Source: Candidatus Moraniibacteriota bacterium | GTDB lineage: Bacteria > Patescibacteriota > Minisyncoccia > CAIUEV01 > JAHKAQ01 | Direction: 5' to 3' | NCBI GenBank assembly: GCA_014729795.1 | Contig: WJJI01000001.1 | Coordinates: 1 to 47,130, forward strand | Length of the DNA stretch: 47,130 bases | Shown here: positions 13,994-28,611 of the stretch, one piece after another | Layout: each line of letters opens with the position of its first letter | Numbering within the stretch: the stretch's first letter is position 1 | Translations under genes and position numbers: made by a program | The notes under the pieces: model-generated | Database searches by the model: none | Told to the model about the DNA's origin: nothing | Seen by the model: the letters and a program-made list of their open reading frames with translations, nothing else

Positions 13994-15094
13994 TTAAGCT
14001 AAGCTGCTGATTAATTTTTTTAAATCTTGTTGATTTTTGTAAGAAATAGTAACCTTGCCTCCTCCGCCTCGCGTCTTGGGTTTAATTTTAACCTGCAGTC
14101 CAATTTTTGAGGTTAAAGCTTTTTGAGTTTCCAAGATTACCGGGTCTATTTTATTTTTCTTGCGCTGATGGGGTTTAACTTTTACATGTTCTTGTAAATT
14201 TTCACAAGCATCGCTTACGGTTAAATCGTGCTTAATAATTTTACGATAAAATTTAAGCTGCTCCTCTGGATCTTCAACCGAAAGAATGGTTTTGGCGATC
14301 CCCTTTGTTATTAAACCTTGCTTCAGACCTCGCTGGATCTCTTCAGGAAGCTTTAGTAATCGTAACATGTTGGTAATGGAAGGCCTAGCTTTGTTGACCT
14401 TCAAGGCAACTTGAAATTGACTTAAGTTAAAATCGTCAATTAATTTTTTATAGGCCATGGCTTCTTCAATCGGATTCAGATCTTTTCTTTGAAGATTTTC
14501 TATTAAGGCCAATTCTAACTTTTGAGAATCATCGATTTCTCTAATGATTGCCGGAATTTTCTTTAGCCCCGCCATTTCAGCTGCTCGAAAACGACGCTCT
14601 CCGGCGATAATTTCGTATTCTCCCCTACCGCGAGGCATTATCGTGATGGGGTTAATCAAACCATGTTGCTTTATGGAAAGACCAAGGTTTTCTAATTCGT
14701 TTGGGTCGAAACTGCGACGAGGCTGTTTGGAATTAGGATATAATTTATCCAAATCAATCTCGGTAACCATTTGTCCATAATTGGAAGCAAAAATTTCTTG
14801 TTTGGCTTTTTTTTGGGGTTGAGAAGAACCGGGTCCTTGAGCGATCTTTTTTTGATCCTGACTTTTGGACTGATCAAATGATTTTTTCGGTTGTTTGACA
14901 GTTTTAGTCTTTTGATTAACAGCAACATTCACGTGCCGGTCTTGAGAATTGGGGCTGGTTTTTTGCTTGACTTTAAGTTTGCGCACATCATTATTGTAAA
15001 GATCGTTTTCTGACTCGGCCGAATTTTGAAAATCTTCTTTGATGTCGTCTGGTATTAAAGAGGAAAGCCCTCTGCCTAAACCGTATTTTTCCAT
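13994..15094 (-). CDS. parB: ParB/Spo0J chromosome-partitioning protein
   Basis: 366 aa; GLGRGLSSLIPD N-terminus; IDLDKLYPNSKQPRRSFD...GEYEIIAGERRFRAAEMAGLKKIPAIIRE...LIENLQRKDLNPIEEA. Confidence 0.95.
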   Translation of the reverse strand: MEKYGLGRGLSSLIPDDIKEDFQNSAESENDLYNNDVRKLKVKQKTSPNSQDRHVNVAVNQKTKTVKQPKKSFDQSKSQDQKKIAQGPGSSQPQKKAKQEIFASNYGQMVTEIDLDKLYPNSKQPRRSFDPNELENLGLSIKQHGLINPITIMPRGRGEYEIIAGERRFRAAEMAGLKKIPAIIREIDDSQKLELALIENLQRKDLNPIEEAMAYKKLIDDFNLSQFQVALKVNKARPSITNMLRLLKLPEEIQRGLKQGLITKGIAKTILSVEDPEEQLKFYRKIIKHDLTVSDACENLQEHVKVKPHQRKKNKIDPVILETQKALTSKIGLQVKIKPKTRGGGGKVTISYKNQQDLKKLISSLA

Positions 15095-15250
15095 TTTAAT
15101 TTTGTTATTTAATTAAACAATAAAAGAAGTTTTGGATTTTTTGGATTTAATATGATTACCATTTATACTAATTTAGCACAGAAAAGAAAAATATGCCAAA
15201 TTAATAAAAATCCAGCTTTTAATCCCTCAATAACCCAAAAGTATATGTAT

Positions 15251-15278
15251 TTGACAAAGGATTTTTCTATGATAAATT
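15251..15278 (+). promoter_or_regulatory. Probable promoter of the aromatic amino-acid leader/operon
   Basis: Perfect TTGACA (15251-15256) with TAAATT 16 nt downstream (15273-15278), ~30 nt before the leader ORF. Confidence 0.6.
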
Positions 15279-15306
15279 GAAGACAAGAAAAATAAATTTG
15301 AATTTA

Positions 15307-15387
15307 ATGAAAAAAATTTGTTTGAATTATTTTAATTATTTTGGCTTTAAACTCCAAAATCGGAGATTTTTTTGCAATAGAAGCTAG
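15307..15387 (+). CDS. Putative Phe/Tyr-rich attenuation leader peptide MKKICLNYFNYFGFKLQNRRFFCNRS
   Basis: ATG AAA AAA ATT TGT TTG AAT TAT TTT AAT TAT TTT GGC TTT AAA CTC CAA AAT CGG AGA TTT TTT TGC AAT AGA AGC TAG; 7/26 residues are Phe/Tyr, with five in an 8-codon run. Confidence 0.75.
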   Translation: MKKICLNYFNYFGFKLQNRRFFCNRS

Positions 15388-15442
15388 AGTAATCTAAAAA
15401 TAATAAATCAAGCAAAAAAATCTCCGAGTAAGGGGATTTTTT
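15352..15442 (+). promoter_or_regulatory. Transcription attenuator: alternative antiterminator/terminator hairpins
   Basis: Perfect 16-bp inverted repeat TCGGAGATTTTTTTGC (15360-15375) / GCAAAAAAATCTCCGA (15412-15427), overlapping and excluding the terminator stem 15415-15425/15432-15442; weak 1:2 hairpin CTCC/GGAG (15352-15355/15362-15365). Confidence 0.8.
15415..15442 (+). terminator. Attenuator terminator hairpin
   Basis: AAAAAATCTCC-GAGTAA-GGGGATTTTTT, 11-bp stem with one G-U pair and a U6 tail, ~100 nt before the first structural gene. Confidence 0.8.
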
Positions 15443-15540
15443 AATTTTTAACAATTCTTTAATTTGTTGGATTTTTAGCTAAAATATTTGCAAACGAGTA
15501 ATTTTTAACCTTTTTAAATAATAATTATTTATCAACAATC

Positions 15541-16296
15541 ATGCCTGAAAAAAAACAACCGCTACTAAAAAAAATTATCAAGAATGACAACCGCACGATA
15601 ATTTTACCTATGGATCATGGAGTTAGTGACGGTCCGATTCCGGGCTTGGTCAATATGGAAGCAACCATAAAGAAAGCCAAACAAGGCGGAGTAGACGCTA
15701 TTGTGATCCATAAAGGAATATTTCGCTGTTATAAAAAAATTATTGGTAAACTGCCGGTATTAATACATATTTCCGCTTCAACCGGAATGGGAGAGCCCTT
15801 GAGAAAAGTCACGGTGGCCTCGGTAGAAGAAATAAAAAATCTAGGGGCGCAAGGAGTGTCAATTCATGTGAATCTAGCTAATCAATACGAACCGGAAATG
15901 ATTAAGGATCTGGGAAGGATTTCGGAACAATGCCAAAAACACGGCTTACCGTTATTGGCAATGGTTTATCCTCGTAATCAAGTAAAGGGTAAACTAATAA
16001 CCTTTCAGGATCCTGAACGGGTAGCTCACGCGGCTCGCTTGGCGGCTGAACTAGGCGCTGATTTGGTTAAGGTACCTTACACCGGCAGCGCTCAAAGCTT
16101 TAAGAAAGTGATTCAAGGTTGTCCAATTCCGGTGGTTATCGCTGGCGGCGATAAAAGCAGTGAAGCTAAAATGGTTAATTCAATTAAAGCCTGCGTGAAA
16201 GCGGGCGCGGCTGGAGTTTCAGTGGGTAGAAACGTATTCCAGGCCCAAAATATGATTACCATGATTAAAAAAATCAAAAAAGCGGTGCATGTTTAA
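15541..16296 (+). CDS. 2-amino-3,7-dideoxy-D-threo-hept-6-ulosonate synthase (archaeal AroA'; class I FBP-aldolase family)
   Basis: 251 aa; IILPMDHGVSDGPIPGLVN...VHVNL-type IHVNLANQYEPEM...LAMVYPRN...GADLVKVPYTGS...PVVIAGGDK...GAAGVSVGRNVFQ; followed by DHQ synthase II. Confidence 0.88.
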   Translation: MPEKKQPLLKKIIKNDNRTIILPMDHGVSDGPIPGLVNMEATIKKAKQGGVDAIVIHKGIFRCYKKIIGKLPVLIHISASTGMGEPLRKVTVASVEEIKNLGAQGVSIHVNLANQYEPEMIKDLGRISEQCQKHGLPLLAMVYPRNQVKGKLITFQDPERVAHAARLAAELGADLVKVPYTGSAQSFKKVIQGCPIPVVIAGGDKSSEAKMVNSIKACVKAGAAGVSVGRNVFQAQNMITMIKKIKKAVHV

Positions 16297-17341
16297 ATCT
16301 TTTCAACTTAATTCATTAATCAAATCAATGCAAAAACGAAAGTTTTGGTTCAAACCGTTAAAATGGGATAAAAAACTAATTACCTTGGCGCTGGAAAGCG
16401 GATTTGAAGCTTTTTATGTTGAGCCTAAGTACATAGATACAACCAAAGAACTGGCCAAAATCAAAGTAATAGCTAAAGATAAAAAAGCTGATCTGGTTAT
16501 AGGTAAGGATGTTTACGAAGTTATGATTACCTCAAAACAAGCGGAAAAGCAAGCGATTAAGCATCAGGGCAAAAAACCGGTAATTATTTATAATCAAGAT
16601 TGGACCATAATTCCTTTGGAAAATTTAATTGCTAAAACCGGCAATTTGATTCAACATGTTCACACTGCCGAGCAAGCAAAGACCGCTTTTGAAACTTTAG
16701 AAAAAGGGGCTGATGGAATTTTATTGGAAACTCAAGATCCAAGCCAGATTAAAAAGATGGAACAAATAATGAAAGAAGCTAAAAATGAAAAAATTGAATT
16801 GTTAGAGGCCGAGATTCGGAGCGTGGAAAATTTAACCACTGGGGATCGAGTGGTGATTGATACCGCCAGTATCTTAAAACCGGGACAAGGTATGCTGGTT
16901 GGAGACAGCTCCAAGGCTATGTTTTTAGTTTATAACGAAAATGTTAAATCTCCTTACTGTGACCCCCGACCTTTTCGAGTCAATGCCGGAGGAGCGCACG
17001 CGTATATTCGCATGCCCAAAGATAAGACCAAATACGTGGGAGAAATCAAAAGCGGTGATCAAGTTTTAACCGTGGATCAAAATGGTAATACCGAAGTTGC
17101 GATCGCTGGTAGAGTTAAAATTGAAAAAAGGCCCATGGCTATTGTAAGAGGCAGAATTAAAAACCAAACAATCAGCTTGGTTTTACAAAACGCCGAAACA
17201 ATCCGTCTTACGAAAAAAAACGGTCAGCCCGTTTCAATTACAAAGTTAAAAAAAGGAGACAAGGTACTGGCTTATTTGGAAGAAGTTGGCGCGGGAAGGC
17301 ACTTTGGCATCAAGATCAAAGAGACAATAACCGAAAACTAA
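16289..17341 (+). CDS. 3-dehydroquinate synthase II (archaeal AroB' type)
   Basis: 350 aa; KFWFKPLKWDKKLITLALESGFEAFYV...GADGILLETQDPSQIKK...VVIDTASILKPGQGMLVGDSSKAMFLV...SPYCDPRPFRVNAGGAHAYIRMPKDKTKYVGEIKSGDQVL. Confidence 0.94.
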   Translation: MFKSFQLNSLIKSMQKRKFWFKPLKWDKKLITLALESGFEAFYVEPKYIDTTKELAKIKVIAKDKKADLVIGKDVYEVMITSKQAEKQAIKHQGKKPVIIYNQDWTIIPLENLIAKTGNLIQHVHTAEQAKTAFETLEKGADGILLETQDPSQIKKMEQIMKEAKNEKIELLEAEIRSVENLTTGDRVVIDTASILKPGQGMLVGDSSKAMFLVYNENVKSPYCDPRPFRVNAGGAHAYIRMPKDKTKYVGEIKSGDQVLTVDQNGNTEVAIAGRVKIEKRPMAIVRGRIKNQTISLVLQNAETIRLTKKNGQPVSITKLKKGDKVLAYLEEVGAGRHFGIKIKETITEN

Positions 17342-17370
17342 CCAATTTAATCCTTTAATATTTGAATTAA

Positions 17371-18768
17371 ATGAAAAGCAAAAACAAGCGAGCAAAAATT
17401 ATTGTTAATAAATTCGGCGGCGGGATAATGGTGGCTAAGTTTATAAAGTCAACCGCCCAAGTTATTAAAAAACAAAAAAAAGCCAACTTTCAACCTATCG
17501 TGGTGGTTTCAGCCTTAAAAGGCATCACGGATGAATTGGTTGAAATTTTTAACCTGGTCGGTAATTCAGCTAGAAAAAAAACCAGGAGTAATCGCTCAAA
17601 TCAGCAAGCAATTCAAAAAAAAATCAACACCGCGATAAACAAAATTGAAGAAAAGCATCAGAATATTATCAAAACCCTAAGTTTTCAAACCGCAAATTTA
17701 AAGAAGTTAAACCAAAACATAGAGCAAATATTCAATAAACTGAAAAACGATTTGGTCACCATTAATCGATTTGGGGTCTTAGAGGTTTTTTATGACCGAA
17801 TTCTCTCTTACGGGGAAAAACTGGCAGCCTTAATTTTTGTTTTTTACTTACGCGAACTGGGTTTCAAAGCTAAAAGATATAAAACCGATCAAATTCCAAT
17901 CGAAACTGATGACCATCACACCGATGCTAATATTGACTATGAAAAATCCAAGGTAAACTTGCGCAAGAAGTTAAAAAACAAACAAGAAATTCCGGTTTTA
18001 ACCGGTTTTATAGGACAAAACCAACAAGGCAGCACTACCACGCTTGGCCGTGGGGGAACCGATACTACGGCTTGTTTCGTGGCCGCGGCCATGAACGCAA
18101 AAAAAATTATTTTATGGAAAGACGTGGAGGGAGTAATGTCGGCCGATCCAAGAATGGTTAAGCAAGTTAAAAACGTGCCTTATTTAAGCTATAAAGAAGC
18201 GGAGGAATCGGGCAAGGTTATTCATGATAAAGCGATCCAGTACATTAAAAAAAGCCAAATCGCTTTTGAGGTGCGTTCGATTGTTAAAAAACAACAAAAA
18301 ACCGTGATAGCGGCTCAAACAAAAAGCCAAGGCGCTAAGATAATAAGCTATAAACAAAATTTGACTTTAATTATCATTACCGATGAAGGGGTTAGCGAAT
18401 ACGGTTTTCTGTACAGAATAAGTAAATTGTTTAACGACTTGGAAGTAAATATGGTTTTGATTCGCAACACCCGTGATAGTCTTCATATTGTGGTAGAAAA
18501 AAATAATGGCAATGTTGAACAAGCGCTTAAGCGATTAAAGCGGGAAAAATACAACTTTCAAGCAAATGAAATTGCCATGGTTTCTGTGATCGGCACTTTG
18601 AGTTGGCAAATGGCCAGTCAATTAAATCAAATTTTAGAACAACATTGTCAAAAGCCAATAATTGGCGCTTTTCCTTATCAAGACGCGGTAAGATTGGAAG
18701 CGGTAGTGAAAGATAGGGAATTAAAAAAAGTGGTCCGGGCAATGCATGAAAAGTTTATCAAAGTTTAG
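17371..18768 (+). CDS. lysC: Aspartate kinase
   Basis: 465 aa; KIIVNKFGGGIM...VVVSALKGITDEL...SYGEKLAA...TLGRGGTDTTACFVAAAMNAKKIILWKDVEGVMSADPR; C-terminal ACT-like region. Confidence 0.92.
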   Translation: MKSKNKRAKIIVNKFGGGIMVAKFIKSTAQVIKKQKKANFQPIVVVSALKGITDELVEIFNLVGNSARKKTRSNRSNQQAIQKKINTAINKIEEKHQNIIKTLSFQTANLKKLNQNIEQIFNKLKNDLVTINRFGVLEVFYDRILSYGEKLAALIFVFYLRELGFKAKRYKTDQIPIETDDHHTDANIDYEKSKVNLRKKLKNKQEIPVLTGFIGQNQQGSTTTLGRGGTDTTACFVAAAMNAKKIILWKDVEGVMSADPRMVKQVKNVPYLSYKEAEESGKVIHDKAIQYIKKSQIAFEVRSIVKKQQKTVIAAQTKSQGAKIISYKQNLTLIIITDEGVSEYGFLYRISKLFNDLEVNMVLIRNTRDSLHIVVEKNNGNVEQALKRLKREKYNFQANEIAMVSVIGTLSWQMASQLNQILEQHCQKPIIGAFPYQDAVRLEAVVKDRELKKVVRAMHEKFIKV

Positions 18769-18798
18769 TTTCGTTTTATAAAGACTAAGTAAAAAAAT

Positions 18799-19884
18799 AT
18801 GAGAAAACTAAAAATCGGTATCCTGGGAGCAACTGGCATGGTGGGGCAAAATTACGTAAAACTGCTTCAAAACCACCCCTGGTTTAAAATTCGCTTTTTG
18901 GCGGCTTCGCCAAATTCCGCTGGTAAAAAATATGCTCAAGCCGTAGACGGTAGATGGCAAATGGACGAGCCAATTCCCAAGGCTGTGAAGAATCTAATAG
19001 TGGAAGACGTGAGTCAAGTTAAGAAAGCCAAACAACGAGTTGATTTTGTTTTTTCCGCATTTGAAATGAGCGATAAACAAGAAATCAGGAGCATGGAAGA
19101 TTTGTACGCAGCTAATGGTATTGCGGTTGTTTCCAATGCTTCGGCGCATCGTCAAACTCCCGACGTACCCATGTTAATCCCGGAAATAAACGCTCGGCAC
19201 TTAAAAGTTATTCCGACTCAACAAAAACAAAGAGGCTGGAAAAAGGGTTTTATCGTAGTTAAACCTAATTGTAGCTTACAAAGTTATTTAACCGCAACCT
19301 ATGCGTTAATGAAAGCTGGCTACCAAGTTAAAAAAATGATCATTACTACTTTGCAAGCTCTTTCTGGAGCCGGACATCCCGGAGTGGCTAGTCTTGATAT
19401 TGCTGACAATGTTTTACCGTTTATTAATGGCGAGGAAGAAAAAAGTGAAAATGAGCCCTTGAAAATTTTAGGCTCAATTAAAAATAACCAATTTCAGGAA
19501 AAAAAGGGATTGAAAATCGCGGCTCATTGCAACCGAGTACCGGTTACGGATGGTCATTTGGCTTGCGTGAGTTTAGGTTTTGGCGTAAAAAAGCCAAGCA
19601 CAGAACAAATCTTAAAAATTTGGAAAAATTTTACAGCCGAACCCCAACAACTAAAATTGCCCAGCGCCCCAACCCGACCAATTATCTATCTAAAACAAGA
19701 AAACCGTCCTCAACCTCGTAAAGATCGTAATAATGATAAAGCCATGGCTTTGACCTTAGGTAGGTTAAGAAAATGCAGGGTTTTGGATTTTCGTTTTACC
19801 GGCTTGAGCCATAATACTGTTAGAGGCGCAGCCGGTGGAGGGATTTTAAACGCGGAGCTACTTTATAAAAAAAACTATTTATAA
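18799..19884 (+). CDS. asd: Aspartate-semialdehyde dehydrogenase
   Basis: 361 aa; KIGILGATGMVGQNYVKLLQNHPWF...VVSNASAHRQTPDVPMLIPEIN...VVKPNCSLQSYL...LQALSGAGHPG...HCNRVPVTDGH. Confidence 0.93.
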   Translation: MRKLKIGILGATGMVGQNYVKLLQNHPWFKIRFLAASPNSAGKKYAQAVDGRWQMDEPIPKAVKNLIVEDVSQVKKAKQRVDFVFSAFEMSDKQEIRSMEDLYAANGIAVVSNASAHRQTPDVPMLIPEINARHLKVIPTQQKQRGWKKGFIVVKPNCSLQSYLTATYALMKAGYQVKKMIITTLQALSGAGHPGVASLDIADNVLPFINGEEEKSENEPLKILGSIKNNQFQEKKGLKIAAHCNRVPVTDGHLACVSLGFGVKKPSTEQILKIWKNFTAEPQQLKLPSAPTRPIIYLKQENRPQPRKDRNNDKAMALTLGRLRKCRVLDFRFTGLSHNTVRGAAGGGILNAELLYKKNYL

Positions 19885-19909
19885 ACAGTTAAAAGATTAA
19901 TATTTAAAC

Positions 19910-21082
19910 ATGAAGTTCAAATTGGCACAAAGAACTCAAAAATTACTTCCCTCCCCTACTTTAACTTTAAATGCCCGGATAAAACAAATGCAAGCTCAAG
20001 GCCAAGACATTATAAATTTGACCGCCGGCGAGTTGGATTTTCCCACGCCAAAAAATGTTTGCGCGGCAGCTAAAAAAGCAATTGATGAAGATTTCACTAA
20101 GTATACCGCTTCGGGTGGAACTACGGAACTCAAAAAAGCGATTGTGGCTAAATTTAAAAAAGACAATCAATTAAATTACACGGTTGAACAGGTAATGGCA
20201 TCTGATGGGGCAAAACAAGCCTTATTTAATGCTTTTTTTACCTTAACCGAACCGGGCGCTGAAGTAATTATGGCTAGTCCTTGTTGGGGAACATACGTAG
20301 AACAGATTAAGTTAAGCGGAGCTAAGCCTGTCATGATCAAACTTAAGCCGCCTTTTAATTTGCAAGCCAAGCAAATTCAAACCAAGATTAACAAAAGAAC
20401 CCGGGTTATTCTCTTGAACTACCCAGCCAATCCCACCGGAGCTACGATAAGCTTAACAGAGCTAAAAAAAATCGCTGAATTAGCGGTTGAAAACAAAATC
20501 TGGGTTATTGCCGATGAAGTTTACGAAAAGTTAACATTTAAACTTGAAAATTTTATCTCTATTGCCAGTTTAAATAGTAAGATTTTTAAACAAACCATTA
20601 CGATTAACGGCTTAAGCAAAGCTCAAGCCATGACCGGTTGGCGAATCGGTTATGCTGCTGGCCCAAAAAACATAATTCAACAAATGGAAAAAATCCAAGC
20701 GCAAATTACTTCTAATCCCTGCTCGATCACGCAAAAAGCCGCGATTCAAGGCTTAAAAAAAGGACAAGCGTTTCAAAAAAAAGCGCAAATTAACTTAAAA
20801 AAACGTCGTGATTATTTGGTTTCAGAGTTAAGCCAAATAAAACAATTAAGCTTTAGCGAACCGCAAGGAGGTTTTTACTTTTGGGTAGAGATTAAACCAA
20901 GATATAAAAAAAGCCAAATCGACTCGATTAAGTGGTGTCAAAAACTTTTAAAAAAAACCGGGGTCGCGGTTATACCGGCTGAAGCTTTTTACGCTCAAGG
21001 CGGATTTCGAATGAGCTTCGCTGCTAATTTAAATGATTTAAAAAAAGCCATGCGAAGAATTAAAAGCTTCTTGGATGAATAA
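19910..21082 (+). CDS. Class I/II PLP aminotransferase (aspartate/aromatic aminotransferase-like)
   Basis: 390 aa; INLTAGELDFPTP...ASDGAKQALFNAF...NYPANPTGATIS...VIADEVYEKL...INGLSKAQAMTGWRIGYAAG. Confidence 0.92.
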   Translation: MKFKLAQRTQKLLPSPTLTLNARIKQMQAQGQDIINLTAGELDFPTPKNVCAAAKKAIDEDFTKYTASGGTTELKKAIVAKFKKDNQLNYTVEQVMASDGAKQALFNAFFTLTEPGAEVIMASPCWGTYVEQIKLSGAKPVMIKLKPPFNLQAKQIQTKINKRTRVILLNYPANPTGATISLTELKKIAELAVENKIWVIADEVYEKLTFKLENFISIASLNSKIFKQTITINGLSKAQAMTGWRIGYAAGPKNIIQQMEKIQAQITSNPCSITQKAAIQGLKKGQAFQKKAQINLKKRRDYLVSELSQIKQLSFSEPQGGFYFWVEIKPRYKKSQIDSIKWCQKLLKKTGVAVIPAEAFYAQGGFRMSFAANLNDLKKAMRRIKSFLDE

Positions 21083-22385
21083 AATAAAAATCAACAAAAT
21101 CAAACAACGCTTTGACGTTAAAGTAGACTTACCCGCTTCTAAATCGATTATGCTTAGGGACTTATTTTTAGCAGCCTTGGCTCAGGGTCGGTCTTTGATC
21201 AAAAACTTTGAAAACTCATTGGACTGCGTAGTGATGAAACAGGCTCTTTTAAAACTTGGCGTAAAAATCACTGATCAAAATGGCCAAGCCATTAAAATAT
21301 TGGGAAAAGCCGGTAAGTTTTCTCACACTAAGAAAAGAATTTTTTGCGGTGGCAGCGGAGTTTCGGCAAGATTGCTAATGGCCTTGAGTTTATTAAGATC
21401 CGGAAAAACTGTTTTAAGCGGCAACCAAAGCCTAAAAAATCGACCCCAACATTATTTAATCAAAGCGATTCAAGAATTAGGCGCCCAAGTTAAAGCGCCA
21501 AAGCCCGGCTTTTTACCATTAGAGGTAACAGGAGGGGCTAACGGGAAAAATATGGTTAAGCTTAAAGGAGATGTTTCCAGTCAATATTTTACCGCTTTGT
21601 TGATGATTGCGCCTTTGTTGGCTAAGGGCTTAGTCATAAAGGTGATTAAAGAATTGGTAAGCAAGCCTTATATCGATATTACTTTGGCTGAAATGAAAAA
21701 ATTTGGCCCAACAGTAAAAAACCTTAATTACCAAACCTTTATAGTAAAGCCGGGCAAATATCAAGCGGTTGATTTAACAGTAGAGGCTGATGCGAGCGCG
21801 GCTTCCTACTTTATGGCAATGGCTACACTGCATGGCGGTAAAATTACTATGACTAATCTTGGCAAAAATAGTCAACAAGGAGATTTAAATTTTTTTAAAA
21901 TATGTGAAAAATTGGGAGCTAAATTAGAATTGAAACAAAAAAGCATAACAATTACCGGCAAGAAAACAAAGAAACTTAAGCTCTTAAAAAAACCAGTCGA
22001 CATGGAAGCGATTCCAGATACAGCCCCGACATTAATGGCCATGGCTCCTTTTATTCCCGGTGGAGTAACTATTATCAATATTGGCACCTTGAAACACAAG
22101 GAATGTGATAGGATTGAAGCGCCGGCTAGAGAATTAAAAAAGTTAGGGGTTGCCGTAAAGACCGGTAAGGATTATATTAAAATTCAGCACAAGAAAAATT
22201 GGGATAAATCAAAAATTAACAATATCGCGCTTGACACTTATGATGACCACCGAATGGCCATGAGTTTAGCGGTGTTGGCAAGTAACATTGGAGATATTGC
22301 CATTAATGATCCCAAATGCGTGGATAAAACCTTTCCTGGGTTTTGGCGGGAATTAAAAAAATTATACCAAATAACTAAAAAATAA
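21075..22385 (+). CDS. aroA: 3-phosphoshikimate 1-carboxyvinyltransferase (EPSP synthase)
   Basis: 436 aa; DLPASKSIMLRDLFLAAL...FCGGSGVSARLLMAL...GDVSSQYFTALLM...DDHRMAMSLAVLA. Confidence 0.94.
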   Translation: MNKIKINKIKQRFDVKVDLPASKSIMLRDLFLAALAQGRSLIKNFENSLDCVVMKQALLKLGVKITDQNGQAIKILGKAGKFSHTKKRIFCGGSGVSARLLMALSLLRSGKTVLSGNQSLKNRPQHYLIKAIQELGAQVKAPKPGFLPLEVTGGANGKNMVKLKGDVSSQYFTALLMIAPLLAKGLVIKVIKELVSKPYIDITLAEMKKFGPTVKNLNYQTFIVKPGKYQAVDLTVEADASAASYFMAMATLHGGKITMTNLGKNSQQGDLNFFKICEKLGAKLELKQKSITITGKKTKKLKLLKKPVDMEAIPDTAPTLMAMAPFIPGGVTIINIGTLKHKECDRIEAPARELKKLGVAVKTGKDYIKIQHKKNWDKSKINNIALDTYDDHRMAMSLAVLASNIGDIAINDPKCVDKTFPGFWRELKKLYQITKK

Positions 22386-22396
22386 CTATTAAAGTC

Positions 22397-22909
22397 ATGA
22401 ACCTTGCATTAATCGGCTTTATGGGCGCCGGAAAAACCGAAACCGCCAAAATATTGGGGGAAATTCTGGATTATCAAATCAAAGAAACCGATGAGGAAAT
22501 TATCAAAGCTAGTGAATTTGAAACAATCAAAGAAATTTTTAATCATATTAAAGAGTTGGGCTTTCGAAAATTAGAGACTCGGGTTATTGAACAACTAAGC
22601 GACCAAAACCAAATTATCATTTCTACTGGCGGAGGAGCGGTTATGAATCAAATTAACATGCTTAATTTGAATAAAAACTCGATTATTATTTACTTAAAAA
22701 CTGAGTTTGAAACCTTAAAAAAAAGAGTGGCTCAGGATTATGAACGACCTTTGTTTCAAGATCCAAACAAGGCTAAAAAATTATTCAAGTTGCGGGAACC
22801 TGTTTATGAGTACTACGCGCAATATATTATTAAAACCGATGATTTAGTACCAAAACAAGTGGCGGAACAAATTATTAAAAAAATCAAAGCTCATGTTAGC
22901 GACAAGTAA
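22397..22909 (+). CDS. aroK: Shikimate kinase (bacterial AroK type)
   Basis: 170 aa; LALIGFMGAGKTETAKILGEIL...ETDEEI...ELGFRKLETRVI...ISTGGGAVM. Confidence 0.92.
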   Translation: MNLALIGFMGAGKTETAKILGEILDYQIKETDEEIIKASEFETIKEIFNHIKELGFRKLETRVIEQLSDQNQIIISTGGGAVMNQINMLNLNKNSIIIYLKTEFETLKKRVAQDYERPLFQDPNKAKKLFKLREPVYEYYAQYIIKTDDLVPKQVAEQIIKKIKAHVSDK

Positions 22910-23723
22910 AACCAAAATTTGCATAATTATCGGCGATCCGGTGCGGCACTCCCTTTCCCCGCTAATGCACAATCACGCTTATAAACAGACTAACCTGGAA
23001 GGAAAGTTTATTTTTATCGCAGCCCGAGTAAAAAATAAACAATTGTCCACGGTTTTTCCGGCTTTAAAACACATGCAAGTTCAAGGAATAACCTGTACCG
23101 CGCCTCATAAACAAACGGTCATTAAATACTTAGATCAAATTGATTCCACAGCCTCGATCATTGATGCGGTGAACACAGTGGTTAAGGAAAAAGCCGGATA
23201 CAAAGGATATAATACCGATTGGCTGGGTGTAGTTGACCCGCTGGAAAAGTTAACCGATTTAAAAAATAAAAAAATCGCGCTTTTAGGCGCCGGCGGAGCA
23301 GCTCGAGCCGCGGTTTATGGTTTACTAAAAAAAGGGGCGCGCCTAACGATTTTTAATCGCACCCAAGACAAAGCTCAAAAATTGGTTGAAGAATTTGCCG
23401 CTATGGCTAAATACAAAGCAAAATCAGCTGGCTTAGACGAGCTTTCGACTATCCCGAACTATCAAATAATAGTCAACACGACTTCGGTGGGTTTAAAGCA
23501 AGATAAAAGCTTGATAAAACCTGATTGGTTAAAGCAAAATCATATAGTTTTTGACGCGGTTTACTCAGAAGCGGGAACCAGATTAATAAATGATGCTCAA
23601 GCTAAAAAAGCCCAGGTAATTACGGGTAAAGAAATGCTTTTGTATCAAGGTATAGCTCAATATGAATTGTACACCGGGCAAAAGGCTCCGGTCCAGGCCA
23701 TGAAAAACATCTTAAATTTATAA
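22893..23723 (+). CDS. aroE: Shikimate dehydrogenase
   Basis: 276 aa; IIGDPVRHSLSPLMHNHAY...CTAPHKQTVIKYLD...AVNTVV...GYNTDWLGVV...LLGAGGAARAAVYGL...NTTSVGL; overlaps aroK. Confidence 0.95.
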   Translation: MLATSKTKICIIIGDPVRHSLSPLMHNHAYKQTNLEGKFIFIAARVKNKQLSTVFPALKHMQVQGITCTAPHKQTVIKYLDQIDSTASIIDAVNTVVKEKAGYKGYNTDWLGVVDPLEKLTDLKNKKIALLGAGGAARAAVYGLLKKGARLTIFNRTQDKAQKLVEEFAAMAKYKAKSAGLDELSTIPNYQIIVNTTSVGLKQDKSLIKPDWLKQNHIVFDAVYSEAGTRLINDAQAKKAQVITGKEMLLYQGIAQYELYTGQKAPVQAMKNILNL

Positions 23724-23729
23724 CAACAA

Positions 23730-24434
23730 ATGCGGGAAAAAATTTGCGTACCCATTACCGATAAAAATCTTCAAACTTTTTTAAAAAATGCAAAAAAAGC
23801 CGCCAGACAAGTTAAATGGCTGGAATTTAGAATTGATTATTTAAAACAAGCGCCTAGTGATTATGAGGAAATATTACAAAATCTTGCTCAATTTTCCCAA
23901 TCAAATAAAACAATTTTGACTTGCCGAAAAAAAGAGGAGGGCGGAGTGTTTTCCGGAAGCGAAGAACAAAGAATCCGGGTTCTAAACCAAGCGCTAAAGT
24001 ATAATTTTACTTATGTTGATATCGAGCTATCCACTATTGAACAGTTTGATCTTAATAAAAATAAAAGCAAGACCAAAATAATTTGCTCTTTTCATGATTT
24101 CAAACAAACCCCCAAATTACAAGAATTAAAAAAAATCAGAAACAAAATAAAAAAACAACAAACAGACGTGGCAAAAATAACAACCATGGTGAACTCTACT
24201 CATGATATTAAAAATTTAAGTAGATTATTGCTTGATCAAGAAAAAAACTTGGAGCAAATTGTTATAGGAATGGGTAATTTGGGAAAAATAACCCGGGTGT
24301 TCTTTCCTAAAATCGGTTCTTTGCTAACTTATGCTAGGTTAAACAACTCGGGCTCAGCGCCGGGTCAACTTACTGTTGAACAAGTATTAAAGGTAAATAA
24401 ACTAATCAATGCGGATCGCGAAATAAAGAATTAA
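23730..24434 (+). CDS. aroD: 3-dehydroquinate dehydratase, type I
   Basis: 234 aa; KICVPIT...WLEFRIDYL...ILTCRKKEEGGVFSGSEEQRI...YVDIELS...ICSFHDFKQTP...AKITTMVNS...GSAPGQLTVEQV. Confidence 0.9.
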   Translation: MREKICVPITDKNLQTFLKNAKKAARQVKWLEFRIDYLKQAPSDYEEILQNLAQFSQSNKTILTCRKKEEGGVFSGSEEQRIRVLNQALKYNFTYVDIELSTIEQFDLNKNKSKTKIICSFHDFKQTPKLQELKKIRNKIKKQQTDVAKITTMVNSTHDIKNLSRLLLDQEKNLEQIVIGMGNLGKITRVFFPKIGSLLTYARLNNSGSAPGQLTVEQVLKVNKLINADREIKN

Positions 24435-24445
24435 TTGATAAAAAT

Positions 24446-25363
24446 TTGAAAAAAATACCAAGCAAAAATCAAGAAACCTGGGGAATAGCGGCCATGATTA
24501 TGGCTTCTTTATTTGTGGTTGGCAATAATGCTATAGCGAAATTATTGGCAGCGCAAATAAACCCTTTAAGCGTGATTTATTGGCGAATGTTACTAGCGGC
24601 CGGTTTTGCTTGGCTTTTATTTAAGCACAAAATTAACTGGCAAAAAATCTTTTCAGCCAAGCCTAGCCAAATTTTCATGCTTTTTTTTGTAGGAATTTTT
24701 AATAGCGCGATAGCGGTATTTCTAAGAGTATTAGCATTAATGAATACCACATTGTTAAATGTTTCGATAATCCACACTCTTATTCCTTTATTGGTGTATT
24801 TATATTCAATTTTTATTTTTAAAAACAAATTTAACTTGAAAATTATAGGCTTAATATTAATCTCAATTTACGCGGTTATAATTTTGTCCACAAATTCTTT
24901 ATTTTTCCAATTGGGAAAAATGGGCAAAGGGGAACTGTTAGTAGCCGGAGCTACTTTGATAACCGCTTTAGGATATGTTGTGCGTAAAATATTGTTAAAA
25001 AGTTTTAATACCTTTGAGGTTTCCTTGCCCGCTTTTTTAATATCTGGATTAACCTTACTTGTTATGGATGGAACAACCAACCAATTTGACAAACAAGCGC
25101 TTTGGGATTGGCAAACTGGATTTTTGCTTGTTTTAAGCGGATTTTTGGCTTGTTTGGGAATAATTTTAACCAACCAAAGCATTAAACAACTTAGGTCAAC
25201 CACGGCCAGTCAGGGAGCGCATGTAAAAGTAATTTTTGCGTTTGGGTTGGGCTGGTTTGTTTTCGGGGAAATGCCAACCATTTATTCGCTAATCGCGGCT
25301 ATGATTATTATTGGTTCCATTTACCTATCAAACCGTGAGCAGAAAAAATTAAAAATGATTTAG
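24446..25363 (+). CDS. EamA/DMT-superfamily transporter
   Basis: 305 aa, TTG start; ~10 hydrophobic segments with two EamA-like halves; NPLSVIYWRMLLAAGFAWLLF...FLRVLALMNTTLLNVSIIHTLIPLLVYLYSIFIFKNKF. Confidence 0.85.
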   Translation: MKKIPSKNQETWGIAAMIMASLFVVGNNAIAKLLAAQINPLSVIYWRMLLAAGFAWLLFKHKINWQKIFSAKPSQIFMLFFVGIFNSAIAVFLRVLALMNTTLLNVSIIHTLIPLLVYLYSIFIFKNKFNLKIIGLILISIYAVIILSTNSLFFQLGKMGKGELLVAGATLITALGYVVRKILLKSFNTFEVSLPAFLISGLTLLVMDGTTNQFDKQALWDWQTGFLLVLSGFLACLGIILTNQSIKQLRSTTASQGAHVKVIFAFGLGWFVFGEMPTIYSLIAAMIIIGSIYLSNREQKKLKMI

Positions 25364-25440
25364 TTTAGTAAACATCAGCTTGCTTTTTCATTGGCTATCT
25401 TCTAATATTTAATCATTAAGCATAATAACCTTAAGCGCTT

Positions 25441-26523
25441 ATGCGAGGCAATACTTTTGGTAAAATTTTTTCCATCACCACAGCCGGAGAGTCTCACGGC
25501 GGTGCGATTGCGGTTATTGTTGATGGTTGCCCGGCTAAGTTCAAGCTTGAAGCCAAGGATATTCAAAAGCAGTTAAATCGACGAAGGCCAGGCCAAAGCA
25601 ATCTAACAACAACCAGGAAGGAAGCTGATCAAGTTGAAATCTTGGCTGGATTAAGCCAAAAAATCACTTTGGGTACTCCAATTTTAATGATTATTAAAAA
25701 CAAAGATGCTCGCAATCATGATTATGAACATTTGAAAAATATTTACCGTCCGAGTCATGCTGATTTTAGCGTTGAAAAAAAGTACGGCATACGTGAATGG
25801 CGGGGTGGGGGCCGGGCATCAGCTCGAGAAACCGCAGCTAGAGTAGCTGGCGGAGCCATAGCGAAAAAGTATTTAAAACTAAAATTAAACATAAAAATTT
25901 ATAGTTACGTTGAGCAAATCGGCCCGGTTAAAGCTGTGGTTCAAGAAGAAGATATTTCTTTGACCAAAATTGAAAACAACCCGATTCGTTGCCCTGACCC
26001 AAAAAAAGCTCAACAAATGATCAAATATCTGGAAAAGATCAAAAAGCAAGGCGATTCAACCGGTGGTGTAATCCGAACAGTAATCAAAAATACGCCGCTG
26101 GGTTTAGGCGAACCGGTTTTTGATAAACTATCGGCCGACTTAGGCAAAGCAATGCTTAGTATTAATGCGGTTAAGGGATTTGAATTGGGCGCCGGATTTG
26201 CCTCCGCCTCCATGAAAGGCAGTGAACACAACGATCTGTTCCATAGCGACTCCAATGGCCACGTTAAAACCAAGACTAATTTTTCTGCTGGAATTCAAGG
26301 AGGGATTTCCAACGGTCAAGATATTTATTTTCGAGTGGCTTTTAAACCGGTTGCCACTATCAACCAAAAACAAACCACAGTCAATACCAAGGGCGAGTCA
26401 GTTAAATTTCAAGGTCGAGGTCGCCATGATGCTTGTGTGGTGCCCAGAGCAGTACCTATCGTGGAGGCAATGAGCGCGATAACTCTTTTAGATCACTATT
26501 TAAGGCAACAATGTTATCGATAA
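25441..26523 (+). CDS. aroC: Chorismate synthase
   Basis: 360 aa; GNTFGKIFSITTAGESHGGAIAVIVDGCPA...RRRPGQSNLTTTRKEADQVEILAG...RPSHADFSVEKKYGIREWRGGGRASARETAARVAGGAIAKKYL. Confidence 0.97.
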   Translation: MRGNTFGKIFSITTAGESHGGAIAVIVDGCPAKFKLEAKDIQKQLNRRRPGQSNLTTTRKEADQVEILAGLSQKITLGTPILMIIKNKDARNHDYEHLKNIYRPSHADFSVEKKYGIREWRGGGRASARETAARVAGGAIAKKYLKLKLNIKIYSYVEQIGPVKAVVQEEDISLTKIENNPIRCPDPKKAQQMIKYLEKIKKQGDSTGGVIRTVIKNTPLGLGEPVFDKLSADLGKAMLSINAVKGFELGAGFASASMKGSEHNDLFHSDSNGHVKTKTNFSAGIQGGISNGQDIYFRVAFKPVATINQKQTTVNTKGESVKFQGRGRHDACVVPRAVPIVEAMSAITLLDHYLRQQCYR

Positions 26524-27380
26524 AACAATCCAAATCAAAACCAAAAGTGGCATTTTTAGGACCTCAAGGCTCCTATAGCCACTTGGCGGCGCAAAAATGT
26601 TTTAAAAATCGACCAATTAATCTTTTACCGGTCCAAGAGGTGGAACGGGTTTTTAAAAAAGTAAGCTCTAAAATAGCTAAATTTGGTATAGTTCCAGTTG
26701 AAAACACAGCCGCGGGTTCAATTGAAAAGGTCATGGATTTATTTGCTCGGGATCGATTAAAAGTCAAAATCGCTCAAGAGGTTTTTTTAAAAATAAATTT
26801 TCATTTTTTAGGGCATGAACAAAAGCTAAGCCGCATTAAAAAAATTTTTGCTCATCCCATGGCGCAAGCGCAATGTTCAAAATGGCTTAAACAAAAAAAT
26901 TTTCAAGATAAAATCGCGCATTCAAAAAGTAATTCCCATTCCTGTATTGAAGCGAAAAAAAATCAAACAAGCGGCGCGATCAGCAACCGACTTTCCGCCA
27001 CTTTATATGGATTAAAAATTTTGGAATCCAACATAGAAAATTTAAAAAACAATATCACTAGATTCTTTGTTCTGGCCCAGCAAGACCAAATTAAGCCAAC
27101 TTACCGGTGTAAAACTTCATTTCTAATCGTGATTAAAAATCAACCAGGCTCATTGTATAACCTAATCAAAGCTATTGCTAAAAGAAAGATCAACATGACC
27201 AAAATCGAATCCCGGATTATGAAAAAAGGTGGTTGGGATTATTATTTTTTTATCGATATTCAGGGTCATAGAAAACAACCCAATGTGAGAGAAGCCATAA
27301 AAGAAATGCGACAAAATTGTGAAAAATTAAAAATTTTAGGTTCCTATCCTCAAGGCAAAGCTCCTTGGGATGAAGATTAA
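26511..27380 (+). CDS. pheA: Prephenate dehydratase with C-terminal ACT domain
   Basis: KVAFLGPQGSYSHLAAQKCF...FGIVPVENTAAGSIEKVMDLF; ACT TSFLIVIKNQPGSLYNLIKAIAKRKINMTKIESRIM. ATG at 26511 (MLSIKQSKSKPKVAF) preferred over the ORF-track start at 26433. Confidence 0.94.
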   Translation: MLSIKQSKSKPKVAFLGPQGSYSHLAAQKCFKNRPINLLPVQEVERVFKKVSSKIAKFGIVPVENTAAGSIEKVMDLFARDRLKVKIAQEVFLKINFHFLGHEQKLSRIKKIFAHPMAQAQCSKWLKQKNFQDKIAHSKSNSHSCIEAKKNQTSGAISNRLSATLYGLKILESNIENLKNNITRFFVLAQQDQIKPTYRCKTSFLIVIKNQPGSLYNLIKAIAKRKINMTKIESRIMKKGGWDYYFFIDIQGHRKQPNVREAIKEMRQNCEKLKILGSYPQGKAPWDED

Positions 27381-27558
27381 TGGTTCTTATTAACGATCAG
27401 GAAGCTCCTAGGGCTTAGGCGTTTGATAAATTTTTTGAAGACATTTTCCTAAACGCATAAATCCAATTTGTTAAAAAAATAATTATGATTTACAGTTTTT
27501 TCATCTAAAGCAGGCTAAACAAAAACATTGTTTTAGATTATAACCTTAAATAATTAAC

Positions 27559-28611
27559 ATGATTATGAATAAGGAGAAAAAAAATCAAGTCGGTATTTTT
27601 GGCTTTGGCGATTTTGGACGTTTGTTGGCGTGTATATTAAACAAAAACTTTGAGGTAAAACTGTTTGATTATAAATTATCGCCAGCTGACAAAAAACTGA
27701 CTAAAAAACTCAAACTAAAAATCGCGGGCTGGCCGGAAATTTTTCAAAGCCGGGTGATTGTTTTAGCGGTACCAATTTCCCAAACTCAAGCGCTAATAAA
27801 AAAAATTAGTAGCCAATTAAAACCGGGTACGTTACTCTTGGATGTTTGTTCAGTCAAAGTTTTGCCATGCAAGTGGTTGAAGAAATATACTGATAAAGAT
27901 ATTCAGATCATGGGGACTCATCCCATGTTTGGACCGGCAAGCGCCAATTTTAATCTTGATAAATTATCTTATCGACTTAAAGATTTACAAATCGTGCTTT
28001 GTCCCTTGAGAATCAAAAAAAACAGGTATGAAAAAATTAAAAAATATTTAACCGACCTTGAGCTTGAGGTAATCAAAGCCACACCGAGCGAACACGACCA
28101 TCAAGCAGCCAAATGCCTTGGTTTTATGCATTATCTAGCTAGAATTTTATGGACTGCTGAGTTTAAAGAACAACAATTAACCACCAAGGGTTATGAGCAT
28201 TTAAAGGCCACTTATTACACCATCAAAGATAGCTGGCAGTTGCTTTATGACATGAATAATTACAATCCCTACGTGGATCAAATAAAGCAAAAATTTAATC
28301 GGGCTCAAAAACGAATTGACAAACGAATCTTACAAGCCAAAAATGAATCGCGATTGGATTATTATCGGCAAAGCATAAACGCCATTGATCAGAAGTTGCT
28401 AGAACTGCTTGAGGAACGCTTTAAAATAACTACCAGGGTGGGAGCTTATAAAAAGAAACGAAACTTACCGATTTTAGATAGTACCAGAGAAAAACAATTG
28501 ACTGATCGAGCCTTAAAACAATCAAAGCTGGATCCAAGATTTATCCGAGATTTTTATCGGTTAATTCTGAATAAATCATATGAAACTCAAGGACAAACCA
28601 AAAATAAATAA
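27559..28611 (+). CDS. Prephenate/arogenate dehydrogenase fused to C-terminal AroQ-type chorismate mutase
   Basis: 350 aa; GIFGFGDFGRLLACILNKNFEVKLFDYK...LLDVCSVKVLPCKWLKKY...IMGTHPMFGPAS; C-term YYRQSINAIDQKLLELLEERFKITTRVGAYKKKRNLPILDSTREKQL. Confidence 0.9.
   Translation: MIMNKEKKNQVGIFGFGDFGRLLACILNKNFEVKLFDYKLSPADKKLTKKLKLKIAGWPEIFQSRVIVLAVPISQTQALIKKISSQLKPGTLLLDVCSVKVLPCKWLKKYTDKDIQIMGTHPMFGPASANFNLDKLSYRLKDLQIVLCPLRIKKNRYEKIKKYLTDLELEVIKATPSEHDHQAAKCLGFMHYLARILWTAEFKEQQLTTKGYEHLKATYYTIKDSWQLLYDMNNYNPYVDQIKQKFNRAQKRIDKRILQAKNESRLDYYRQSINAIDQKLLELLEERFKITTRVGAYKKKRNLPILDSTREKQLTDRALKQSKLDPRFIRDFYRLILNKSYETQGQTKNK

Follow-up and report, generated by a model that had tools for sequence, protein, structure and literature searches.

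Positions 15251–15449 of the window (the whole stretch of DNA analysed, 47,130 nucleotides) very probably form a ribosome-mediated transcription attenuator that senses charged tRNA-Phe and tRNA-Tyr, although there are no expression data. The element lies 99 bp upstream of a 13-gene aromatic operon. Its parts, the overlap of its stems, its recurrence in divergent relatives at similar spacing and its match to the downstream pathway were computed. The coordinates of the element, of the operon genes and of comparable leaders are listed in Table 1.

The element lies within a 446-nt intergenic region between a parB-like gene (13994–15094, minus strand) and AroA', which starts at 15541. As the preliminary description had claimed, a TTGACA promoter was found, with the -35 box at 15251–15256 and the -10 box TAAATT downstream at 15273–15278, just preceded by TG. 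A transcription start near 15285 is inferred. The 26-codon ORF of that description was likewise confirmed, with its Phe/Tyr run at codons 8–14, a second aromatic pair (Phe-Phe) at codons 21–22 and its stop codon at 15385. The Phe-Phe codons lie inside segment 2 and may be present for base pairing rather than sensing. No Shine-Dalgarno sequence precedes the leader ORF. In the same genome, Shine-Dalgarno cores occur just before 2.4% of the starts versus 6.9% of control stretches (621 ORFs of at least 200 codons), and translation starts in this genome seem to do without them. The missing sequence is no objection, because the genome apparently does not use one.

The 2:3 stem, described earlier as a perfect 16-bp antiterminator, does pair 15360–15375 with 15412–15427 over 16 bp with zero mismatches (about -20 kcal/mol). 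The 3:4 terminator hairpin has 11 bp (about -11 kcal/mol), with one G-U pair and only 3 G-C pairs, and the bases right after the stem are AATTTTT. The terminator 5' arm sits within the second arm of the 2:3 repeat, so the two stems overlap. The coordinates, the 11-bp stem and the arm common to both structures were correctly described, but the U6 tract reported in addition to the stem is not extra; it belongs to the 3' arm (15437–15442). The weak 1:2 hairpin CTCC/GGAG exists, with only 4 bp, and its role is doubtful. Folding of 15285–15450, a check proposed in the preliminary description, gave an energy 4.9 SD below dinucleotide shuffles (z = -4.9).

Table 1 Features of the window element, of the downstream operon, and of leaders in relatives and elsewhere in the same genome.
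Feature	Location	Strand	Remarks
Sigma-70-type promoter	15251–15278	+	Consensus match 10/12 (TTGACA, 16-nt spacer, TG-A-TAAATT)
Leader ORF, 26 codons, MKKICLNYFNYFGFKLQNRRFFCNRS	15307–15387	+	Comparable ORFs in four other patescibacterial lineages
Control codons 8–14, Tyr-Phe-Asn-Tyr-Phe-Gly-Phe	15328–15348	+
Weak 1:2 hairpin, CTCC 15352–15355 with GGAG 15362–15365	15352–15365	+	Read from sequence
Segment 2, antiterminator 5' arm	15360–15375	+	Within leader ORF
Segment 3, antiterminator 3' arm	15412–15427	+	Includes terminator 5' arm
Intrinsic terminator	15415–15449	+	Stem 15415–15425 with 15432–15442, U-rich 15437–15449
AroA', 2-amino-3,7-dideoxy-D-threo-hept-6-ulosonate synthase, operon gene 1	15541–16296	+	NF005556 above cut-off; TIGR01949 somewhat below its cut-off
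3-Dehydroquinate synthase II (DHQS-II)	16289–17341	+	Profile
Aspartate kinase and aspartate-semialdehyde dehydrogenase	17371–19884	+	Profiles
Aminotransferase, aroA, aroK, aroE, aroD, EamA-like transporter, aroC	19910–26523	+	Profiles except aroA, aroK, aroD
Prephenate dehydratase; prephenate dehydrogenase with chorismate-mutase domain	26520–28611	+	Profiles; Phe and Tyr pathway ends
Leader of Ca. Moraniibacteriota Bin_114, MKNLFQIYYFFYFFFNRCSSEIFCIKFN			Same family as window genome
Leader of Ca. Paceibacterota RS_7_61, MKYTKNNQFFFYSFFSRHKR			Before aroD-aroE-aroK fusion gene
Leader of Ca. Moranbacteria TAG_MAG_00007, MKKLSIQWNSYWFFGFMGKS
Leader of Ca. Moraniibacteriota T11, MKNLSLRMNSYWFISFKKKAGFCL
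leu leader, MKSIIKQLIAAVLLIVAAQTRVVGFKFT	L140 5977–6045, contig 33		Before aminotransferase, leuA, EamA-like transporter, leuC, leuD; Leu/Ile/Val codons
ilv leader, MIASKNMRQLVKIIVLTP	L180 9467–9422, contig 35	-	Before ilvE, ilvD, ilvB, ilvN; Ile/Val/Leu codons
thr leader, MFKASRQKTTRLTGTTARLRPV	L140 884–942, contig 33		Before aspartokinase-homoserine dehydrogenase, threonine synthase; Thr codons
Probable Ser/Cys leader, MINHKQAKINYRTSAVCSCGSSAQEVGFNLLVN	L175 9209–9124, contig 17	-	Before histidinol-phosphatase-like PHP protein, serA-, serC-, cysK-like genes
T-box before glyS	L182 7322–7504, own genome contig 40		Rfam E = 3e-9, under gathering score
T-box-like leader before trpE	L167 about 2560–2835, own genome contig 41		Signature GGTGGTACCGCGGG and terminator, by eye

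In the mechanism proposed here, leader translation, ribosome stalling, the direction of the response and starvation-responsive read-through are all inferred. RNA synthesis would begin near 15285, and translation of the leader ORF would initiate at 15307. Under shortage of Phe or Tyr, the ribosome would stall at codons 8–14 with its front edge at about 15360 at most. Segment 2 would then be free to pair with segment 3, no terminator would form, and the 13-gene operon would be transcribed. When both amino acids are plentiful, the ribosome would cross segment 2 to the stop codon at 15385 and cover segment 2. The 3:4 pairing would then form, and transcription would be expected to stop at about 15443–15449. 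The 2:3 stem is stronger than the 3:4 hairpin. Read-through is therefore expected from an untranslated leader, and the 4-bp 1:2 hairpin would do little to block it.

The downstream genes fit the codons in the leader. The 13 genes lie on the same strand (15541–28611), mostly with small gaps. The aminotransferase (aspartate-aminotransferase-like), aroE, the EamA-like transporter and aroC were named by profiles, whereas the genes that we take to be aroA, aroK and aroD were named by sight. The AroA' route uses aspartate semialdehyde as substrate, which accounts for the aspartate kinase and aspartate-semialdehyde dehydrogenase genes within the operon. Phe and Tyr are the end products, made through prephenate dehydratase and prephenate dehydrogenase, and the earlier claim that the sensed codons match the pathway holds. 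The trp operon is located at another site in the genome. EamA-like transporter genes are present within both the aromatic operon (window 24446–25363) and the leu operon (L140 9017–9988), and it is possible that they carry amino acids or intermediates.

The element recurs in relatives. The class sample contained 388 genomes, and AroA' was counted when identity exceeded 50%. Chorismate synthase was above the cut-off in only 5 of these genomes, and AroA' was found in only the window genome and three others; the lineage counts are small because few patescibacterial genomes make aromatic amino acids. One further AroA' genome came from a scan of 85,462 named genomes with a four-protein alignment query, while a single-protein query in the same type of genome-contig scan gave no matches. 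In all five patescibacterial lineages found with this AroA', a leader rich in Phe and Tyr (in part also Trp) runs into segment 2, and a 2:3 stem and an overlapping terminator are present. Each leader precedes either AroA' or the gene that opens the aromatic operon; that of RS_7_61 stands upstream of the fusion gene because AroA' is further down in its operon. TAG_MAG_00007 and T11 are mutually related. Across the five lineages, the leader sequences are divergent, too much so for a covariance model. The segment 2/3 pairs have three different sequences (GGAGAT/ATCTCC, GCGAT/ATCGC and AGCTG/CAGCT), which indicates that the pairing was kept while the letters changed.

The last Phe/Tyr/Trp codon of the run begins 14, 17, 14, 10 and 10 nt upstream of segment 2 in the five lineages, and the leader stop codon lies inside segment 2 or 7–14 nt beyond it in all five. 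With this spacing, segment 2 should remain accessible when the ribosome stalls in the run and become covered when it finishes the leader. The attenuation geometry of the preliminary description holds, and the spacing is similar in 5/5 lineages. That description had also named orthologous leaders without Phe/Tyr enrichment or alternative stems as a refutation; both features were present in all five lineages. Leader-peptide attenuators are expected to have a short ORF with a cluster of end-product codons, as found in the window and the relatives, and a mutually exclusive antiterminator and terminator 3' of these codons, as also found. The required spacing, with segment 2 either free or covered, is met in five lineages.

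Several candidates were excluded. AroA' matches of 34–42% identity elsewhere in the class or phylum are probably other class-I aldolases; one of them, in genome G700, had a gene context without the aromatic pathway. A genome with chorismate synthase (G282) carries a DAHP synthase and an ordinary 3-dehydroquinate synthase, and its contig ends just upstream of aroB. A terminator-bearing leader before aroD in TAG_MAG_00007 was not counted, as the terminator does not overlap its upstream hairpin. This aroD upstream region is present in two copies (L027 1–400; L018 450–250, minus strand), both of which contain a long-range hairpin and a terminator, and the second copy continues into a decayed aroD at the contig end.

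AroA' loci beyond the Patescibacteria were also compared, comprising 52 other bacterial loci (at least 200 nt upstream) and 21 archaeal loci. A leader was defined as a short ORF with at least 6 of 10 consecutive residues being Phe, Tyr or Trp. Such leaders were found upstream of AroA' in 23 of the 52 bacterial loci (0.5 expected from shuffles) and in 0 of the 21 archaeal loci. All 23 bacterial leader loci have a terminator (0.9 expected), and 17 have an overlapping antiterminator (0.1 expected). Most of these loci belong to Desulfobacterota, and several are closely related to each other, so that the 23 are not independent cases. An alignment of 13 of these leaders shows conserved FYFSYYYF-type runs and terminators. 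In the loci tested beyond the phylum, all Rfam models stayed below their gathering scores. The Desulfobacterota leaders resemble the window leader in the downstream enzyme and the sensed amino acids; however, they have GC-rich stems and longer, denser runs, and no sequence similarity was noticed. Whether the two groups have a common origin or converged is undecided.

The window genome was scanned for intrinsic terminators with a 5' arm able to pair with an upstream segment at a distance of at most 130 nt. The scan covered 1,066,700 bases (with small overlaps) on both strands; part of contigs 43 and 50 was excluded, and the end of contig 43 was inspected separately. One leader, that of TAG_MAG_00007, had already been seen by eye when the scanner limits were relaxed. 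Outside long ORFs, 21 candidates were obtained, and the window element had the top score. In 4 others, a leader ORF fits the downstream operon (Table 1); the leader MINHKQAKINYRTSAVCSCGSSAQEVGFNLLVN, with its intrinsic terminator, probably senses Ser/Cys. The background set comprised 1,140 intergenic ATG ORFs of 12–40 codons, among which the Thr run was matched by 1 and the Ser/Cys run by 5; the Ile/Leu/Val runs are weaker evidence. The region upstream of trpE was not above Rfam's gathering score for T-box. In other genomes of the class, leaders such as MIKSLLLGLLLATDCGRFTRA, MKYHATQNLLALLLLVEEGFCVG and MNLINKQQNIIISIIISHGILSCRLV stand before leuA- or citramalate-synthase-type genes.

Further structures were observed during this work. 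In genome G343 (contig 1, L215 4851–4759, minus strand), leader MSNQTNQKLYSFYFFSFWFSQIGLGLLKMNNA and an attenuator precede a 277-residue protein without a Pfam match. On contig 43 of the window genome (L220 5508–5457, minus strand), an attenuator-like structure lies directly before citramalate synthase; its short ORF is Ser-rich, not Ile-rich, and remains unexplained. A 22-nt motif, TGCRATAWRTGGTRGAYTCATA, has just three occurrences in the genome even when 4 mismatches are allowed (L140:691, L140:5833 and L167:2486), each upstream of the promoter region of the thr, leu or trp operon, and is possibly an operator.

A chance arrangement, in which an ordinary inverted repeat and a terminator lie next to a random short ORF, can be practically dismissed. 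Short ORFs are indeed common, and tRNA genes and unremarkable repeats are among the other intergenic candidates that the scan returned. Yet no terminator with an overlapping 2:3 stem appeared in 1,500 dinucleotide shuffles of the 446-nt region, at a threshold of about half the score of the window element; that element's score is the genome's highest. The recurrence in all five lineages already contradicts chance. Control of the terminator by a T-box, another riboswitch or a protein-bound antiterminator, with the short ORF left untranslated, is very unlikely. The genome does have a T-box before glyS and apparently one before trpE. Neither a T-box match nor a T-box sequence was detected in 15200–15545, however, and a specifier domain would not fit into so short a leader; moreover, the ORFs and their runs recur at a fixed spacing from segment 2. 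T-box RF00230 and other Rfam families were rejected for the window leader, as no model matched.

The remaining alternative is a translation-coupled attenuator without amino-acid specificity, in which segment 2 is exposed whenever the leader ribosome slows down, whatever the cause, and the Phe/Tyr codons merely reflect the U-rich DNA required for pairing with A-rich arms. It is improbable, though less so than the two above. TTT and TAT are frequent in AT-rich DNA, codons 21–22 belong to segment 2, and the window run is not extreme; its Phe/Tyr content is matched by 23 of the 1,140 background ORFs and is only moderately unusual alone. The run at codons 8–14 nevertheless lies outside segment 2, and the relatives' leaders reach 8 of 10 residues as Phe or Tyr, a richness seen in none of the 1,140 ORFs. 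The same runs are present in the GC-rich Desulfobacterota leaders, and in the window genome itself the thr, leu and ilv leaders use other codons. The case for a Phe/Tyr-sensing attenuator rests on the combination of its parts with the relatives, not on Phe/Tyr content alone.

In E. coli pheA and trp, ribosome reading of a short leader peptide switches the operon. The pheA, pheST and trp attenuators of Enterobacteria share with the window an ORF rich in end-product codons, mutually exclusive 2:3 and 3:4 stems and a terminator before a biosynthetic operon. The window differs in its leader stop codon past or inside segment 2, its very weak 1:2 protector, the lack of a Shine-Dalgarno sequence and the AroA'/DHQS-II type of operon. 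With the Rfam Phe_leader model (RF01859), the window leader reached 22 bits on either strand alike, whereas the gathering score is 55; this indicates no sequence relation beyond chance. T-box leaders also place alternative terminators and antiterminators before amino-acid genes and sense tRNA charging, whereas sensing in the window would use a translated ORF.

Leader-peptide control is also described outside Proteobacteria. In Actinobacteria, trp, leuS, ilvB and cys leaders were listed, with none for Phe, Tyr or Thr (PMC1262725). In Bacilli, a His leader precedes hisS/hisZ; as of 2010, leader-peptide systems were known only from Proteobacteria and Actinobacteria, with Bacilli added by that study's own result (PMC2965389). 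These leaders differ from that of the window in phylum and in amino acid (Trp, Leu/Ile/Val and Cys; His). Neither for the candidate phyla radiation, Patescibacteria and Deltaproteobacteria nor for DHQS II operons was a report of leader-peptide attenuation found in the literature; coverage was incomplete, with most subscription journals missing, and this is weak evidence. The mechanism is the known, textbook ribosome-mediated attenuation, and the phylum and pathway are those without an earlier report found. The preliminary description needs one change here: AroA'/DHQS-II leaders are not restricted to this lineage, since they also occur in the other bacterial loci described above, for which no earlier report was found either.

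Beyond this element, we lean towards a broader, joint reading, in which Patescibacteria that keep amino-acid pathways rely largely on classical RNA attenuation and the archaeal-type AroA'/DHQS-II route gained a Phe/Tyr leader more than once in bacteria. Its first part draws on Phe/Tyr, Leu, Ile/Val, Thr and Ser/Cys leaders and T-boxes in one 1.08-Mb genome. With Phe/Tyr leaders over a pathway that archaea share, present in Patescibacteria and Desulfobacterota and in none of the 21 archaeal loci compared, it can be asked whether such switches arise anew in each case. Little is known about gene regulation in the candidate phyla radiation, few members of which can be cultured. A leader-peptide attenuator works without a regulator protein, its signal can be identified from sequence, and tests in E. 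coli or in vitro do not require the source organism to be grown. Leaders of this type also help to assign uncertain pathway genes. If the attenuator is real, these reduced cells would still tune amino-acid synthesis to the charging of their own tRNAs.
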